Shown here in pieces: positions 56,303 through 63,571 of a stretch of 64,000 bases of DNA. Both the position numbers and the translations under genes were made by a program. This DNA is from an uncultured Planctomycetota bacterium (GTDB lineage: Bacteria > Planctomycetota > Planctomycetia > Pirellulales > Thermoguttaceae): assembly GCA_902796885.1 (NCBI GenBank), contig CADBQY010000114.1, forward strand, positions 1 through 64,000. The letters run 5' to 3'. The stretch's first letter is position 1, and each line of letters begins with the position of its first letter. The notes under the pieces are model-generated. The model searched no databases, was not told the origin of the DNA, and was given only the letters and a program-made list of their open reading frames with translations.

Positions 56303-56377
56303 TCGGGGTGACTGGATTCGAACCAGCGACCCTCTGCTCCCAAAGCAGATGCGCTAGCCAGGCTGCGCTACACCCCG
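56303..56377 (-). tRNA. tRNA-Pro (anticodon UGG)
   Basis: On the minus strand: acceptor CGGGGTG/CACCCCG with discriminator A, D arm, anticodon stem TCTGC/GCAGA around loop TTTGGGA (anticodon TGG), short variable loop and T arm GCTGG TTCGAAT CCAGT. The 3' CCA is not encoded. The low-GC operon lies on its 5' side. Confidence 0.95.
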
Positions 56378-56416: not shown

Positions 56417-56665
56417 GACGGGGAACGCAGGGGGGGGAACGTTTCGCCGGAAAGAGAGAAGACGCGCGGGGCGGTCTCGTTCGCCCTCTCAATCTCTTCT
56501 CAGCCGCGGCGAACGATAAACGGCGGCCGGAATGAGCCGGAAACCGCGCCGATCCTCAAACGCGCTTTAATAAGCCGAAATAGTCGAAATCGGAAGACTT
56601 CTCACGCTTTCTTCAAGTTTCGGAAATAAATTCCGTGATTTTTTGAGGGGATTTTAAAAATCGGG

Positions 56666-56694
56666 TTTACAAAATAGGGGGGGGGGGATATAAA
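56666..56694 (+). promoter_or_regulatory. Promoter with an 11-G homopolymer spacer (phase-variable candidate)
   Basis: TTTACA at 56666-56671 and TATAAA at 56689-56694 are separated by exactly 17 bases, of which 11 are a continuous G run (56677-56687). Gain or loss of one or two G by slippage would alter the spacing and thus expression of the downstream operon. Confidence 0.7.
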
Positions 56695-56811
56695 TAGGCA
56701 GATTTGTATTTCTTAAAGACCGTTCATCCGGACGGAATCATTTTACTCCGCCGGAAACCGGACGGGAGACAAACATTAAAACAGACTGATTGTATCAGTA
56801 AAGGGAAAACG

Positions 56812-58749
56812 ATGAAAAAGGGAATCAAAACTCGCAAATCTCGATTTGAAAACCTCGAAGAACGTCTGATGATGGCGGTCACCGCCGGCGGGTTCGCTTC
56901 GGCTGCGGAATGCGTCGCAAGCGAAGCCGTCAATGACGAGTTTATCCCCATCAGCCTTGGCGAGCCCCTTCAGACCGCCGCTTGCCCCTGCGACAATCCG
57001 CTCCCCGCGCCGACTATTCTGACGGGCAGTAATGGATATTACGTCTCCTACGGACAGAACAACCACTTGATCGCCTGGAGCGAGGTCGAAAACGCCGCGG
57101 GTTATGAATTGGAATATGTAAACGGCAAAGGCGAATGGTTTACGGTTAAAACAACGGAAGATCATGCCGTTGTCGCAAATCTGGCTTACGGGACCAACGT
57201 CACCTACCGAGTTCGGGCTCTCGGCGACGCGATTTACGGCAGTTCCGCTTGGAGCGCGGCCAAGAGCTTCAATGTCTGTCCGATGGATATTGACGAAGAC
57301 GGACTTATTGGACCGGACGACTACGCGCTTCTTTCTTCGGCATGGTTTTCCGCGGAAGACGGCGCAAATTGGAATCCCTGCCGTGACATTGACGGCGACG
57401 GTTTTGTCGGGCCGGGGGACTTCTCTTATCTGAGTTCGAACTGGCTTAAGGATACGGGAGACGAGGGGCTTTCTTATCCTACGGTTAATAAAATTTCCCT
57501 CACCGTTCCCACGTCGGCCCTTACAGTTCCCTCTATCGTGGCGGGGACTAGCAATCTTACGGTAACGGTTCAGGTAGACCAGTCTCAGATTCAGGGAATC
57601 GCGGAAGGTGACAAGGTGACGATAACCGCAAAAGGGACTTACGAGGACTCAGAAAACACAACTGATAAAAATGTCTCCAAAAAAGTTGTAGTTGAATTCA
57701 CTTTGAGCGGAGAAAATGCCTATAAATACGATAATATCCCCGATATCAATGTTCCCGGTGTAGTAAATCCTGCGCCCCCAAAAGTTCAGCTTACATTCAC
57801 AGATTCTATAGATGATCCGTTTCAAATTCCTTCTATCCTTGTCAACTCGACTGACAATACCGTTTCCTTCTCCGTTAATCCTTCCTATATTGACGGTGTA
57901 ATCGATGGCGATACCATTTCGGTTTTAGCGACGGCTATATATGGTGACGTCACACTTGGTGGTGATCAGTTGGTCGATGTCGTGTTCAGCGTGACCGGGC
58001 CTGACACAGAAAAATATATCGCCCCTGATTCGATCCAGTGCGTCGGAAAGATTCTAACCGTTGTCACATACACCCTTTCGTCCAACGGAAAGGCGAGTTC
58101 GGGAGACGGAAGTGTTGCCGAAGGCAGGGGGGCAGAAGAGACTACGGAACTTTACATTGACTTTGATGCCGACCCTGGTGATATCGACCAAAGCAACATT
58201 GCCATCACGACGGGCGGTTCGTACGTAACCAAAACGGGTGCCGGCGTGCTGACACCCGTTTTGGAAGGAACAAAATACCGGATTACCGTTCCGGTGAAAA
58301 AGACGGGCACAGTAGGCACCGGTATCGACAACGTGCAGGTAACGATCGAGAATGTGGCGAAGGTTGACTCAAAACAGTCCAACGCTACCGGGACTTATTT
58401 ACCGATGCTCTATTGGGGGAACTACCCGTTTACAGAGCAGGAAGACGACAATCTCCAAGCCAAACCAACCGTGGCGCTGATCAAGGCTTTTAATGGGGGT
58501 TATCGTCTTACGGGAGCAAAAGAAACTCCAAAGACTGTTCATTTTGAGGACACCTCAGACGCTTATTGTACAGTTGCCTATTATATGTCGGCGTGGGGCA
58601 GGGTTCCTAATCCCACTTCCGGAGGTCTCGAAGATTCGTTTGCGACTTTAACTGATCCAGATAACATCTATTCCGGAAAATATTCTCAATGCGGTGACTA
58701 CAAAGGGACTCACGCTGGATCCTACACGTTTACCATAGCAGAGGAATAG
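56812..58749 (+). CDS. Secreted modular protein with dockerin-like loops and Ig/fibre-like repeats
   Basis: A 645-residue protein. The N-terminus RKSRFENLEERLMMAV resembles the LEPR-XLL export or sorting motif of planctomycete extracellular proteins. Residues about 70-155 look like a fibronectin type III domain (LIAWSEVENAAGYELEY). Residues about 157-215 hold two Ca-binding dockerin-type loops, DIDEDGLIGPDDY and DIDGDGFVGPGDF. Two YDG/MBG-like beta repeats follow (about 222-400), then a C-terminal domain with LYWGNYPF and DAYCTVAYYMSAWGRV that resembles phage or cell-surface fibre domains. GGGAA precedes the ATG. Lower GC than neighbours suggests acquisition. It is the first gene of a three-gene operon. 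Confidence 0.8.
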   Translation: MKKGIKTRKSRFENLEERLMMAVTAGGFASAAECVASEAVNDEFIPISLGEPLQTAACPCDNPLPAPTILTGSNGYYVSYGQNNHLIAWSEVENAAGYELEYVNGKGEWFTVKTTEDHAVVANLAYGTNVTYRVRALGDAIYGSSAWSAAKSFNVCPMDIDEDGLIGPDDYALLSSAWFSAEDGANWNPCRDIDGDGFVGPGDFSYLSSNWLKDTGDEGLSYPTVNKISLTVPTSALTVPSIVAGTSNLTVTVQVDQSQIQGIAEGDKVTITAKGTYEDSENTTDKNVSKKVVVEFTLSGENAYKYDNIPDINVPGVVNPAPPKVQLTFTDSIDDPFQIPSILVNSTDNTVSFSVNPSYIDGVIDGDTISVLATAIYGDVTLGGDQLVDVVFSVTGPDTEKYIAPDSIQCVGKILTVVTYTLSSNGKASSGDGSVAEGRGAEETTELYIDFDADPGDIDQSNIAITTGGSYVTKTGAGVLTPVLEGTKYRITVPVKKTGTVGTGIDNVQVTIENVAKVDSKQSNATGTYLPMLYWGNYPFTEQEDDNLQAKPTVALIKAFNGGYRLTGAKETPKTVHFEDTSDAYCTVAYYMSAWGRVPNPTSGGLEDSFATLTDPDNIYSGKYSQCGDYKGTHAGSYTFTIAEE

Positions 58750-58751
58750 TT

Positions 58752-59585
58752 ATGGCAACCTTTTCAAAATACTCAACATGGAGTGAGCAGTATGTGTCTC
58801 GTAATGGGGCGTTTGACCCTAATAACGGGTTCCCCATCGACTCCCGTTATGTTATCGACACATATGATAATATTGTCACTGACATAACAAAATCACGTCG
58901 GTATCCCGGCCTTCGTATTTTTGTTCTCGATACAGAAAAAGAGTATTGGTTCAAAGGCGGCGTAGAAGACAACGATTTGGTCGAATACAAGCCTTGGATG
59001 AGCGATATCGGAGGCGGCGGAAGTACTGTCGTAACTTCCGCCACAGTCGTTCCTCTTGACGCCAACACCTGTTCAAAGGACGGTATTCCGACCTATTTGA
59101 GCCAACGCATTAGTGAACCGTCTTCCGGTGACGAAGTAAACGTCATTTATACCGAAAGTGGTGAAGAGTCGTTTACAAAGTACGTTTACCTACACGACTC
59201 TTGGCGCATCGCCTGTGGGTCTCAGACAATCTCCTTCACTCTCAGTGCCTACCAAAGTGGCTCATGGGATTCCTGGACGCCACCGACCGATTCTTCTGTC
59301 ATCAAATATGTCAAAGGCTCGGAGGGAGTTGTAACCGTTTATATTAAGCATAGTTTTTGTACCCAGTACGTAGATTCTACTCTTTATGCGGACGACTCGA
59401 CCCTGGACCTCGACAACGACGGAACAACCGACCCCTATGGCGAAGAGCTCCTGGCCAACATTAAATGCGTGAAGCTCTCATCTGCGGAACAAAGCGGATT
59501 CTGGGTTCGCATCGATCTCCACATTTCTTCTTCTGCATCCGTACCCGCACCAACATCAACCTATACGCTACTCCTTCAAAGATAA
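58752..59585 (+). CDS. Unrecognised fibre-like protein
   Basis: A 277-residue protein two bases after the preceding stop, with GAGGAA before the ATG. The N-terminal segment RVYP-type strand GLRIFVLDTEKEYWFKGGVED, then YKPWM and a Gly linker GGGG, resembles short domains of phage and bacteroidete surface-fibre proteins that display a terminal beta domain. The C-terminal part is beta-rich and ends SYTLLLQR-like (TSTYTLLLQR). There is no signal peptide, transmembrane helix or catalytic motif. Base composition is low in GC, like its neighbours. Function is unknown; an extracellular or phage-derived structural role is only inferred. Confidence 0.65.
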   Translation: MATFSKYSTWSEQYVSRNGAFDPNNGFPIDSRYVIDTYDNIVTDITKSRRYPGLRIFVLDTEKEYWFKGGVEDNDLVEYKPWMSDIGGGGSTVVTSATVVPLDANTCSKDGIPTYLSQRISEPSSGDEVNVIYTESGEESFTKYVYLHDSWRIACGSQTISFTLSAYQSGSWDSWTPPTDSSVIKYVKGSEGVVTVYIKHSFCTQYVDSTLYADDSTLDLDNDGTTDPYGEELLANIKCVKLSSAEQSGFWVRIDLHISSSASVPAPTSTYTLLLQR

Positions 59586-59596
59586 AAGGAAAAATC

Positions 59597-59968
59597 ATGG
59601 GAACCATTCAGAATAAAACCAACGTTGCTTCTCTTGACCGTGCCGACCTTTATCAGGAAAATGAGGTTGACCGAATCGTCAACGCTCAAAACGCCCGATC
59701 AGCACAAACCTTTCCAACGGCCACCTTCACAACGGTCACAGGGGACGGCCGGGAAGGGGATAAAATTTATGTCTACGCCTTCACAACATCCGATTCCTTT
59801 ACCGCCGGCGGACAGACCGTGGCCACATCCCTCGTGAACCTAGCCAACATCAACGAAGCGTCTATCCTGGGACAGGCCATGTTTTCGGACAGCTATTACG
59901 ATCCCAAAAACCGTTTCGGGGCGTACCAACCTGTATTAAATGGGTCTATTAAACTCCATACCTTCTAA
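59597..59968 (+). CDS. Small unrecognised protein, third gene of the low-GC operon
   Basis: A 123-residue protein starting at 59597, where AAAAGGA precedes the ATG and 11 bases separate it from the previous gene. It opens MGTIQNKTNVASLDRADLYQ, is polar, and its second half is beta-like (DKIYVYAFTTSDSFTAGG). No signal peptide, Cys or known domain is seen. Small size and position suggest a chaperone, cap or subunit acting with the two larger proteins, but this is inference. Confidence 0.6.
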   Translation: MGTIQNKTNVASLDRADLYQENEVDRIVNAQNARSAQTFPTATFTTVTGDGREGDKIYVYAFTTSDSFTAGGQTVATSLVNLANINEASILGQAMFSDSYYDPKNRFGAYQPVLNGSIKLHTF

Positions 59969-60385
59969 AATTTCCTCCTTACACGGCATTGAAAACCGCG
60001 ACTTGTTAATCCGCTTGAATGAATACGGGTTCTGCTTTTTTCGATAACCCTTTCAAAGGCCGAAGCAGGCACCACTTACCCGTAGCAAAACAACGAAAAG
60101 GCTCCCGAAATTCCCTTTCTCTTGACGGATTTGACATCTTGACATAAACTCATGTGAATTTCCCGCGACGGGCAAAGTCCCGCCGCGGTCGAATTTTCGG
60201 AATCGGGAAAAGAAGGATCGCTCCGCGGGATTCCGCCTAACGGCGTTATCACGCCGCGGTTTATTCCGACGGCCGCGTTCTTTGAACCCCGGCGGCGAAG
60301 CCGTTTGAGATTTTCAAAAGAAATGACGCCGATATACCGGGCGAGGAAATCGACGGAAACGGGCACGCCACAGCGAGACGATATC
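59969..60385 (+). other. Non-coding spacer with inverted repeats
   Basis: About 415 bases with no supported gene. It contains closely repeated TTGAC motifs (60122-60144), an interrupted hairpin CGCGACGGG/CCCGCCGCG (60164-60187) and a 6-bp hairpin CGGCGT/ACGCCG (60241-60256). It may contain the operon terminator and the promoter of the next gene, but neither is clear. Confidence 0.45.
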
Positions 60386-60964
60386 ATGGAATTAAAAGAT
60401 TTTCTTGAAAAAATGGATACCGGCGAAGAGATCGAGGCGGGATCGGAATACCACCTGTTTATGCACCGTCTCTCCCAAGAAGCGCTGCGCATCACGATGG
60501 AAATGAACAATGCCTATCATACGCCGGAAGAACTGGTCGAGCTGATGCGGAAGCTGACCGGTCAGCCGGATTTCCCTTCTTTCGCCCTCTTCCCGCCGTT
60601 TTATACGGACTGCGGGAAGAATATCCATTTCGGTCAAAACGTGTTCGTCAATTCCGGCTGCCGGTTCCAGGATCAGGGGGGTATTTGGATCGGGGATAAC
60701 GCGCTGATCGGGCACAATGCGGTGCTGGCGACGCTAAACCATCATCCCGACCCGAAAAAGCGGGGCAACCTGATCCCTTCCCGTATCGTGATCGGCAAAG
60801 ACGTCTGGTTTGGGGCCAACGTGACGGTATTGCCCGGCGTGACCGTCGGAGACGGCGCGATCATCGCCGCGGGCGCGGTGGTAACAAAGGATGTCCCGCC
60901 CAATGCCGTCGCGGCCGGAGTTCCGGCGAAAATCATCAAAAGGATAGGAGAACGGGAAGAGTAA
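60386..60964 (+). CDS. Sugar O-acetyltransferase (maltose/galactoside type)
   Basis: A 192-residue hexapeptide-repeat acetyltransferase of the LacA/Maa type, using acetyl-CoA. An N-terminal helical cap ([19 protein letters not shown]) precedes the left-handed beta helix: [41 protein letters not shown] with the catalytic His region HHPD, and the classic closing [20 protein letters not shown]. The cap is unlike the usual maltose type (no TEKEKM motif). The ATG at 60386 fits the conserved start. A cyclophilin-like lipoprotein gene follows 53 bases later; this pairing is common in gut bacteria and suggests transfer. Confidence 0.88.
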
Positions 60965-61017
60965 GGCGCTTGCGGTCGCCGGCGCGGGCGCAGCGGACGG
61001 AGAGAAAGAGGAGCTGT

Positions 61018-61611
61018 ATGCGGCGTATCGGTTCGGTAAAGCGTCGGAACGGGCGTGCGGCCGTCTGTATCCTCTTTCTGTTTCTGTTTGCCCTTGCCGC
61101 CTGCGCAAAAAAAGAAGCGCCGGCCCCCATGCCGGCATCCGAGACCGATTCAATCGGCGCCGTTAGAGATGATGCGGCGCTCCCCGCGGGTTCCGAAAGG
61201 GCGGAAACGGAACATGAAAGCCGGCGGAACCCGGCGACGAAGGATATTCCGATGAAAACCAAGCTGACACTCAAAATCGACGGGCGGCCAATGTCCGTTC
61301 TGTGGGAGGAAAACGAATCCGTCGCCGCTCTGCGCGATCTTGCGTCGAAAGAGCCGCTCAACATTCAGATGTCCATGTACGGAGGTTTCGAGCAGGTCGG
61401 TTCCATCGGCACAAGCCTGCCGAGAAACGACAAGCGGACGACAACCGCCGCGGGCGACATCGTCCTTTACTCCGGGAATCAGATCGTTGCGTTCTACGGT
61501 TCCAACACATGGTCCTATACGCGGCTCGGAAAGATATCGGACAGGACGGCCGACGAACTGACGGAAATCCTGGGAAGCGGAAACGTGACGATAACCATAA
61601 CGACGAAATAA
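61018..61611 (+). CDS. Lipoprotein with cyclophilin-like domain
   Basis: A 197-residue protein. A lipoprotein signal (VCILFLFLFALAAC) is followed by an Ala/Pro/Glu-rich linker to about residue 80 and then a cyclophilin-like fold domain: KLTLKIDGRPMSVLWEENES, LRDLASKEPLNIQMSMYGGFE and GDIVLYSGNQIVAFYGSNTW. The catalytic Arg of true cyclophilin prolyl isomerases is not evident, so the activity is unknown. AGGAG lies before the ATG at 61018. Sits after the acetyltransferase gene, an arrangement seen in mobile redox gene blocks of gut bacteria (recalled). Confidence 0.78.
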   Translation: MRRIGSVKRRNGRAAVCILFLFLFALAACAKKEAPAPMPASETDSIGAVRDDAALPAGSERAETEHESRRNPATKDIPMKTKLTLKIDGRPMSVLWEENESVAALRDLASKEPLNIQMSMYGGFEQVGSIGTSLPRNDKRTTTAAGDIVLYSGNQIVAFYGSNTWSYTRLGKISDRTADELTEILGSGNVTITITTK

Positions 61612-61794
61612 GCTCAAAATCACCGGTCAAGCGTTTTCCGCCGGCGTTTCTAAACCTCTTTGTTTCGGAACGGGCGGAAACGGTTTCTTTTCCCGCGGCG
61701 GCGACGGCGGATCGGAAAAATCTTTTACGACGCGTACTTTCAGGCTCTAAAATCGAATCCGTCTCGGTTTCCCCGAAACAACACCGCGAGCCCG

Positions 61795-62223
61795 TTATCG
61801 GAGCGTCCATTTCCCCTCTTTGCGCCTCCCGACCCGTTCGAGAAGACCTTGCTCGCGCATTTTCCCAAGCGCGTAACGGACGCCGCTTTTCGAAAGACCT
61901 GTCTTTTCCGCCATTTCGGTCAGAGTGATCGACGGATTTCCGCAGATCAAGCGGAGCAAACTCTCGGCTGATCCGTTTTTTGTGCCGGTCTTAGTGTTAG
62001 TGTCAGTCTTTATGCCGGTCTTAGTGTCAGTCTTGGCGGCGGTGCCGGATGCGGAAATGTCCGGGAAGACCTTTTCGTCGAAAGACGGACGCCCGCCGGC
62101 GGCCGGTTTTCGGTAGAGGTTGACGCGAAACGTTTCCGGCATTTCGATAAACTCCGGTTCGGGGAGTCCGTACGCCTTGGCTTCCTGACAGATCTTTCTC
62201 AGACCGTTCCCCCACGCGATTCC
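61795..62223 (-). pseudogene. C-terminal remnant of an AlbA_2/HATPase_c_4-type ATP-binding regulator
   Basis: The frame reads WGNGLRKICQEAKAYGLPEP, then MPETFRVNLYR, a Thr/Lys/Asp repeat linker (TDTKTGIKTDTNTKTGTK) and a winged-helix end (ITLTEMAEKTGLSKSGVRYAL). This is the typical C-terminus of Schlafen/AlbA_2-type ATP-binding proteins of 400-500 residues. The N-terminal two thirds are missing: upstream lies the end of glgC in another frame. An internal ATG could yield 115 residues, but that would contain only the wing. I treat it as a truncated gene. Confidence 0.72.
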
Positions 62224-62260
62224 GCGACGGGAATGGCGCGGGGATCGGCCGGGACGCGTC

Positions 62261-63571
62261 CTATTTCCCTTCCCCGGTCAGGTTGGTGCCGTCGGGGACG
62301 GAGGCGTTCTTTTCGACGCAGATCACGCCGTCGCGGATCTGGCCGTAGAAACTTTCGCGCGTTTCGACAATCCCGTTCGGATTGGCAATCGTGACGTTCC
62401 GGCCGATGGCGCAGTTCTTGTCGACGATCGCCCCGTCGATCACCGTGTTGTCGCCGATTCCGATCGGCACTTTCCCCTCGGCGGCGACCTGATCCAGTTC
62501 TTTGCGCGTCTGGTAGAAATCCTGCCCCATCAGGATCGTGTTGCGGATCACGCAGTTTTTGCCGATCTGCGAACGGAGTCCCACGATCGAGTTTTCGATC
62601 ACCGTCCCTTCCCCGATCGTGCAGCCGTCAGCGATCAGGCTCGAGACGATCTTCGCGCCGCCGATCCGCGAGGCGGGAAGGAAGTTCGGGCGGGTGTAGG
62701 TCGGCGACGAAGCGGTCGAAAGCGCGAACGGCGGATTGTCGGAGGCCATCGCCAGGTTCGCTTCGAAGAAGGCGCCGATCGTACCGATGTCTTCCCAGTA
62801 GCCGTCGAACGGATGCACCTGAACGCGTTTGGTTCGGATGGCCGCGGGAAAAACCTCTTTCCCGAAATCCTTGTAGTCGGTCTTTTCGAGCGCGTCGATC
62901 AGGGTCTGCTTGTTGAACAGATAGATCCCCATACTCGCCAGGTATTCGCGGCCGCCCGCTTCGATCCCGAGCGACTCGATCGATTCCCGCGAAATCCGAA
63001 CGTGGTCGAGTTCCTGCTCGGTCTTCGGTTTTTCGAGAAACCCGACCACTTTACCCCGCGAATCAGGTTTGTCGGAAAGACGCATGATCCCGAATCCGGA
63101 CGCTTTGTCGCGCGTTACGGGCACCGCGGCGATCGTCACGTCGGCCTTGGCGTTGACGTGCGTCTCGATCATTTTGGCGAAATCCATCCGGTAAAGCTGG
63201 TCCCCCGAAAGGATCAGAACGTAGTCGATGTCGCGCTGGCTGATGTAGTTGATGTTCTGGCGGACGGCGTCGGCGGTTCCCTGATACCAGGCTCCGCTCT
63301 GGTTCGTCTGCTGCGCGGCCAGGATCTCGACGAAGCCGCGGCTGTAATCGTCGAAATTGTAACACCGGATATGATGATGGAGACTGACCGAGTTGAACTG
63401 CGTGGCGACGTAGATCCGGTTCAGACCGCTGTTGATGCAGTTCGACAGGGGAATGTCGATCAGGCGGTATTTCCCCCCGATCGGAACCGCGGGTTTCGCA
63501 CGGTATTTCGTCAGCGGATAAAGACGGGTCCCCTGCCCGCCTCCCAAAATCAGAACGACAACATTATTCAT
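62261..63571 (-). CDS. glgC: Glucose-1-phosphate adenylyltransferase
   Basis: GlgC makes ADP-glucose from ATP and glucose 1-phosphate, the committing step of bacterial glycogen synthesis. The 436-residue protein has GGGQGTRLYPLTKYRAKPAVP (nucleotide-binding loop; positions 10-30), GTADAVRQN, the catalytic LSGDQLYRMD, GFLEKPK and a C-terminal left-handed beta helix (VIENSIVGLRSQIG and following). Start ATG at 63571; the frame stays open to 63883, but that extension lacks conservation and overlaps the promoter. No other glg genes lie in the window. Confidence 0.95.
   Translation of the reverse strand: MNNVVVLILGGGQGTRLYPLTKYRAKPAVPIGGKYRLIDIPLSNCINSGLNRIYVATQFNSVSLHHHIRCYNFDDYSRGFVEILAAQQTNQSGAWYQGTADAVRQNINYISQRDIDYVLILSGDQLYRMDFAKMIETHVNAKADVTIAAVPVTRDKASGFGIMRLSDKPDSRGKVVGFLEKPKTEQELDHVRISRESIESLGIEAGGREYLASMGIYLFNKQTLIDALEKTDYKDFGKEVFPAAIRTKRVQVHPFDGYWEDIGTIGAFFEANLAMASDNPPFALSTASSPTYTRPNFLPASRIGGAKIVSSLIADGCTIGEGTVIENSIVGLRSQIGKNCVIRNTILMGQDFYQTRKELDQVAAEGKVPIGIGDNTVIDGAIVDKNCAIGRNVTIANPNGIVETRESFYGQIRDGVICVEKNASVPDGTNLTGEGK

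Follow-up and report, generated by a model that had tools for sequence, protein, structure and literature searches.

The window, which is the whole 64,000-nucleotide stretch of Thermoguttaceae DNA analyzed here, carries a promoter whose spacer includes an unbroken run of 11 G. We consider it quite likely that this is a sigma-70-type promoter with a slippage-prone G tract inside its spacer, and that it belongs to a set of such promoters used by at least two gut-associated Thermoguttaceae genera. Slippage would alter the number of Gs, and hence the distance between the -35 and -10 elements and the level of transcription; the window locus itself would presumably be switched in this way. In one genus the set would serve LEPR-XLL/dockerin proteins and an operon of TerY_C, kinase, VWA, PP2C and FGE genes, and in the other PEP-CTERM and autotransporter-repeat proteins. 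The geometry of the promoter, its recurrence, its placement before mostly exported genes and the difference in tract length between near-identical paralogous promoters were observed directly, and sequence comparison gives good support, for the promoter class, to phase variation through slippage.

The window promoter and its operon

The first-pass annotation had described TTTACA and TATAAA separated by 17 bases that include 11 unbroken G, and re-reading the coordinates found this to be exact (Table 1). TATAAA likewise abuts a G11 tract on contig C170 of the window genome, in G001 and in G005. The conserved stretch 3' of the -10 element corresponds to a consensus of about TRGGCARR among the promoters of the genus, and the transcript probably starts within it.

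Table 1. Features of the window promoter, its surroundings and the second G11 promoter of the same genome.
Feature	Position	Strand	Basis or remark
-35 element, TTTACA	56666..56671	+	Sequence; TTGACA in related promoters
17-bp spacer, AAATAGGGGGGGGGGGA (AAATA-G11-A)	56672..56688	+	Sequence
G11 tract, proposed slippage site	56677..56687	+	Sequence
-10 element, TATAAA	56689..56694	+	Sequence
Conserved stretch 3' of the -10, TAGGCAGA	56695..56702	+	Listing of genus promoters
tRNA-Pro(tgg), conserved left edge of the variable slot	56303..56377	-	Comparison with relatives
Accessory segment, 5.86 kb (5,858 bp), between tRNA-Pro and glgC	56419..62276	.	Comparison with G005
Gene 1, 645 aa	56812..58749	+	ORF; LEPR-XLL-type N-terminus, Fn3-like and dockerin-like parts, weak YDG-like repeats
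Gene 2, 277 aa	58752..59585	+	ORF
Gene 3, 123 aa	59597..59968	+	ORF; no convincing family match
L081, operon of TerY_C, kinase, VWA, PP2C and two FGE-sulfatase genes	G000 (window genome), C170:9000-17600		Under the second G11 promoter

The three close-packed ORFs downstream are separated by 2 bp (genes 1 and 2) and 11 bp (genes 2 and 3) and have GC contents of 0.50, 0.475 and 0.50 (about 0.475-0.503), against 0.61 in the window left of the accessory segment, which bears out the low-GC three-gene operon of the annotation. Its description of the operon as encoding an exported modular protein is plausible: the gene 1 product has LEPR-XLL/dockerin/Fn3 homologues in the genus. The N-terminus carries the LRxESLEERxLLAV-type motif, with the window sequence RKSRFENLEERLMMAVTAGG aligning with genus members. 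The product resembles that of L074, a G001 gene under a G12 promoter (43% over about 230 aa), and has its Fn3/dockerin part in common with L076. The Planctomycete extracellular profile PF07595 (Planc_extracel) scored below cut-off in L074, L076 and L079, and the profile search did not report it for the gene 1 protein. For gene 2 we found no relatives in 119 family genomes and nothing convincing in viral contigs or by PDB sequence search; a 52-aa part of it weakly resembles Tenacibaculum phage proteins, and the AlphaFold model of this protein alone has a pLDDT of 35, too low to be informative.

Comparison of genomes indicates that the window operon is accessory. The close relative G005 is without the whole segment, having the peptide deformylase-tRNA-Pro region, then about 34 bp and glgC; in G003 the genes that follow the tRNA-Pro are unrelated ones. 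This accessory character and the lack of gene 2 relatives in the family favor a reading that we hold only tentatively, in which the slipping tract tunes expression by degrees as a rheostat, or the switch is relevant only elsewhere and the window copy is a passenger on an accessory segment. The porA promoter is itself graded (PMC3639595), which also speaks for this reading. Set against it is that a pure G11 with intact -35 and -10 elements has been retained on accessory DNA, in which a tract out of use should decay.

Recurrence of the layout and the genes it precedes

The window belongs to a 3.14-Mb assembly that resembles a MAG and consists of 215 contigs. Only 14 G-runs of at least 9 occur in the whole assembly, and the longest are two G11 runs, both between TTKACA and TATAAA. 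A first-order model predicts about 4e-6 matches to TTKACA-N3..6-G9-N0..1-TATAAW per 3.14 Mb, versus the two present. The second lies at C170:16884-16904 and reads TTGACA-AACT-G11-TATAAATGGGC.

G8 or longer followed by TATAAA was found in three of the seven genomes of the genus, including the window genome, with no control matches. A search of the 119 family genomes for TTGACA-N2-7-G8 returned about 45 distinct loci; the backward pattern, used as a control, gave 6 hits, and a C tract in place of the G tract gave 17 loci. Because the -10 element was not part of the search pattern, its presence at the end of the tract provides an unbiased test. TANNNT or TATAAN directly follows the last G at 26 of the 28 loci in g1 (the window genus) and g32, and a -10-like hexamer adjoins the tract at 0 of 15 loci elsewhere in the family and at a single one of the 17 C-tract loci. 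The background frequency of such a hexamer is 0.022, and the binomial calculation on these counts takes the loci as independent, some of them being paralogues. A long homopolymer between the -35 and -10 elements, as in porA-type promoters, is thus present in the window and in 26 of these 28 relatives. The poly-C version as an equal alternative is ruled out by its single adjoining -10. Phylum-wide spread of the exact layout was also rejected, since it was found in 10 of 392 sampled genomes, mostly as single G8-G9 matches at a background-like level.

Two-colour sequencing chemistry is a source of false poly-G, and most or all of the genomes concerned are MAGs. That the tracts arose in sequencing or assembly, or fell where they do by chance, is nevertheless exceedingly improbable given the exact -35 and -10 flanks at some 27 loci, which come from independent projects (the RGIG goat and deer sets and the S1R_St set), the near-empty control searches, which rule out chance placement of the tract, and the minute number of sites expected per genome (about 4e-6). 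Where the first-pass annotation treated the window promoter alone, missing that it is one of a set, the layout recurs at about 27 further loci, ahead of surface genes and one kinase-phosphatase operon, in two related genera.

The genes under G-tract promoters in both genera are predicted to encode mostly exported products. In g1 they include six further LEPR-XLL genes (L072, L074, L075, L076, L079 and L080), and the profiles matched downstream are Dockerin_1, fn3, Planc_extracel (below cut-off) and choice-of-anchor Q. In g32 most of the products are PEP-CTERM proteins, of which some contain autotransporter repeats (PATR); a DUF1559 pseudopilin is also among them. The operon on C170 matches TerY_C (PF15616, 4e-8), kinase (PF00069, 6e-19), PP2C (PF13672, 1e-18) and two FGE-sulfatase profiles, and VWA below cut-off (PF00092, 6e-4), so that the TerY_C, kinase, VWA and PP2C genes of a TerY-P-type module, with a putative defence or stress role, are found together. 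Its kinase also matches the PADLOC PD-T4-6 and mad6 models, over the kinase domain. The second G11 promoter lies ahead of this operon, so promoters of this type also serve genes other than those for surface proteins.

LEPR-XLL motif matches at E<=1 number 38 in the window genome and 52 in G001 (range 7-52 per genus genome). None of 40 further LEPR-XLL upstream regions of the genus has an intact long tract in a promoter spacer, which rules out that every LEPR-XLL gene has a G-tract promoter; three of the 40, all from G003, have G-rich interrupted spacers. Only a minority of LEPR-XLL genes are therefore under G-tract promoters, and this counts against the switch reading.

Other poly-G layouts were seen in the course of the searches. 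In G116, of the same family (g40), about 18 loci (L344, L351, L352, L356, L357, L361-L364 and L367-L375) have a common leader, CAAAGCGTTTGATTTTCTTGGATTGTGTCAAAATATGTC-G11..13-TACGTAAAATGGC...GCCATATTTTACGTG, with an inverted repeat after the tract. Most of them precede pseudopilin-like genes, among which one has FTLVELLVVIAIIG as a clear prepilin start, and they probably represent another poly-G-controlled surface family. A different layout, TTAAAATRGG... followed by G12-17 and TATAAA, occurs in g39 (G112, G109 and G101; L376-L379), with tracts of 12, 14, 16 and 17. Dispersed TTGACAGCGCC(A/G)G8-10 promoters in g22 (L102-L105, L111 and L260) keep an 18-bp spacer where the -10 is readable, with an apparently invariable tract and, in some cases, exported proteins downstream. 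Among the matches listed, Microcystis L125, L126, L131, L136, L156, L160 and L189 have TTGACAAA(A/T)TC-G9..11-TA(G/A)AAT promoters preceding proteins with PEP-CTERM-like ends, a pairing that is apparently convergent. TTGACA-G9..12-(TGN)-TATAAT spacers (L115-L229, again among the matches listed) are widespread in many Clostridia, Streptococcus, Ca. Ancillula, Treponema and Helicobacter, often ahead of apparent lipoproteins or secreted proteins.

Tract length, spacer length and proposed switching

In MAG consensus sequences, one genome per species, the 11 g1 loci (window included) have tracts of 10 (n=2), 11 (n=7), 12 (n=1) and 16 (n=1), and the g32 tracts run from 8 to 16. The LEPR-XLL genes L072 and L075 of G001 have G11 and G16, respectively; they are about 97% identical over the 400 bp downstream (leader and coding sequence), and their upstream flanks differ. 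These paralogous promoters thus vary in tract length among near-identical copies, as porA-type promoters do. Five Gs gained or lost, against a few percent of substitutions, show a far higher rate of change in the tract than in the sequence around it.

A tract kept by selection as a fixed promoter feature, recognized for instance by a G-specific regulator or serving some particular sigma factor as a shape element, would account for several observations: where a tract abuts the -10, the Gs are nearly always on the non-template strand, G11 predominates in the window genus, the stretch just 3' of the -10 is likewise conserved, and g22 has TTGACAGCGCC(A/G)G8-9TGATTATACT at a constant 18-bp spacing. 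We regard this explanation as unlikely in view of G11 versus G16 in near-identical paralogous promoters and the lengths of 8-16 across loci. It is further weakened by the G-rich interrupted spacers of some relatives in G003, TTGACA-GAAGGGGCGGGGGCGACG-TATAAT, which are consistent with decayed or locked tracts, as expected of slippage and not of a required motif.

Two aspects of the length data count against switching by slippage. The first is that 7 of 11 g1 loci are exactly G11 at any spacer length, which might be less scatter than expected of free slippage. The second is the spacing. By the usual E. coli rule a 17-bp spacer is optimal, and spacers here gather at 14-15 bp: those to the adjoining -10 in g1 are mostly 15 bp (five loci), with others of 14, 16, 17 (the window) and 20, and those in g32 cluster at 14-15 bp, with outliers of 12, 16, 17, 19 and 21. 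Under this rule the spacing of the window promoter would be optimal and its state, at a guess, ON, and most other G-tract promoters would be weak. G11 occurs in g1 with spacers of 14, 15 and 17 bp.

The proposal of a phase-variable switch for a surface-protein operon stands at the level of the promoter class, because the architecture is recurrent, lengths range from 8 to 16 and near-identical paralogous promoters have G11 and G16. Its further claim, that 11 G gives the optimal spacing, is not established, most relatives having 14-15 bp and G11 occurring at three spacings.

Relation to known phase-variable systems

Among open-access papers (subscription papers not covered) we found no earlier report of such promoters in planctomycetes; the porA-type mechanism is already known from Neisseria, and a multi-locus set in Planctomycetota appears to be unreported. 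We lean, with less assurance than for the promoter set itself, towards a broader view in which several gut planctomycete genera have genome-wide poly-G-spacer promoters that independently randomise LEPR-XLL, PEP-CTERM and DUF1559 pseudopilin families and a TerY-P-type signalling/conflict operon, a Neisseria-like phasome, of which none is known to have been described in the phylum. If true, surface diversification in uncultured gut planctomycetes would be stochastic, as is best known of pathogens adapted to a host, and phages, host immunity or competitors would be the suggested source of pressure. The same promoter before the TerY_C-kinase-phosphatase operon suggests randomised expression of regulatory or conflict systems as well. 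The G tracts are ready-made markers, and length counts in existing metagenomic reads could test switching without culture.

In the porA promoter of Neisseria meningitidis a poly-G tract lies between the -10 and -35 elements, and relative to 11G (high), surface protein is about 2-fold less with 10G and about 13-fold less with 9G (PMC3639595). The planctomycete promoters are similar in having a poly-G tract in the spacer, in its length of about 11 G and in the surface-protein gene that follows. They differ in the direct contact of tract and -10 in most copies, in spacers that mostly measure 14-15 bp and in the use of one layout by many unlinked genes, in another phylum, Planctomycetota.

Mononucleotide tracts also control surface structures at contingency loci of Haemophilus, Campylobacter, Helicobacter and Bordetella, and the planctomycete tracts resemble these in their placement at surface-structure genes. 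Many homopolymer contingency loci switch by coding frameshift, whereas the planctomycete tract is in the promoter. In Chlamydia, of the same superphylum, poly-G variation affects the polymorphic membrane proteins. There too poly-G lies near genes of repeat-rich surface proteins, and L079 has a weak Chlam_PMP repeat match; the promoters and proteins are unrelated.
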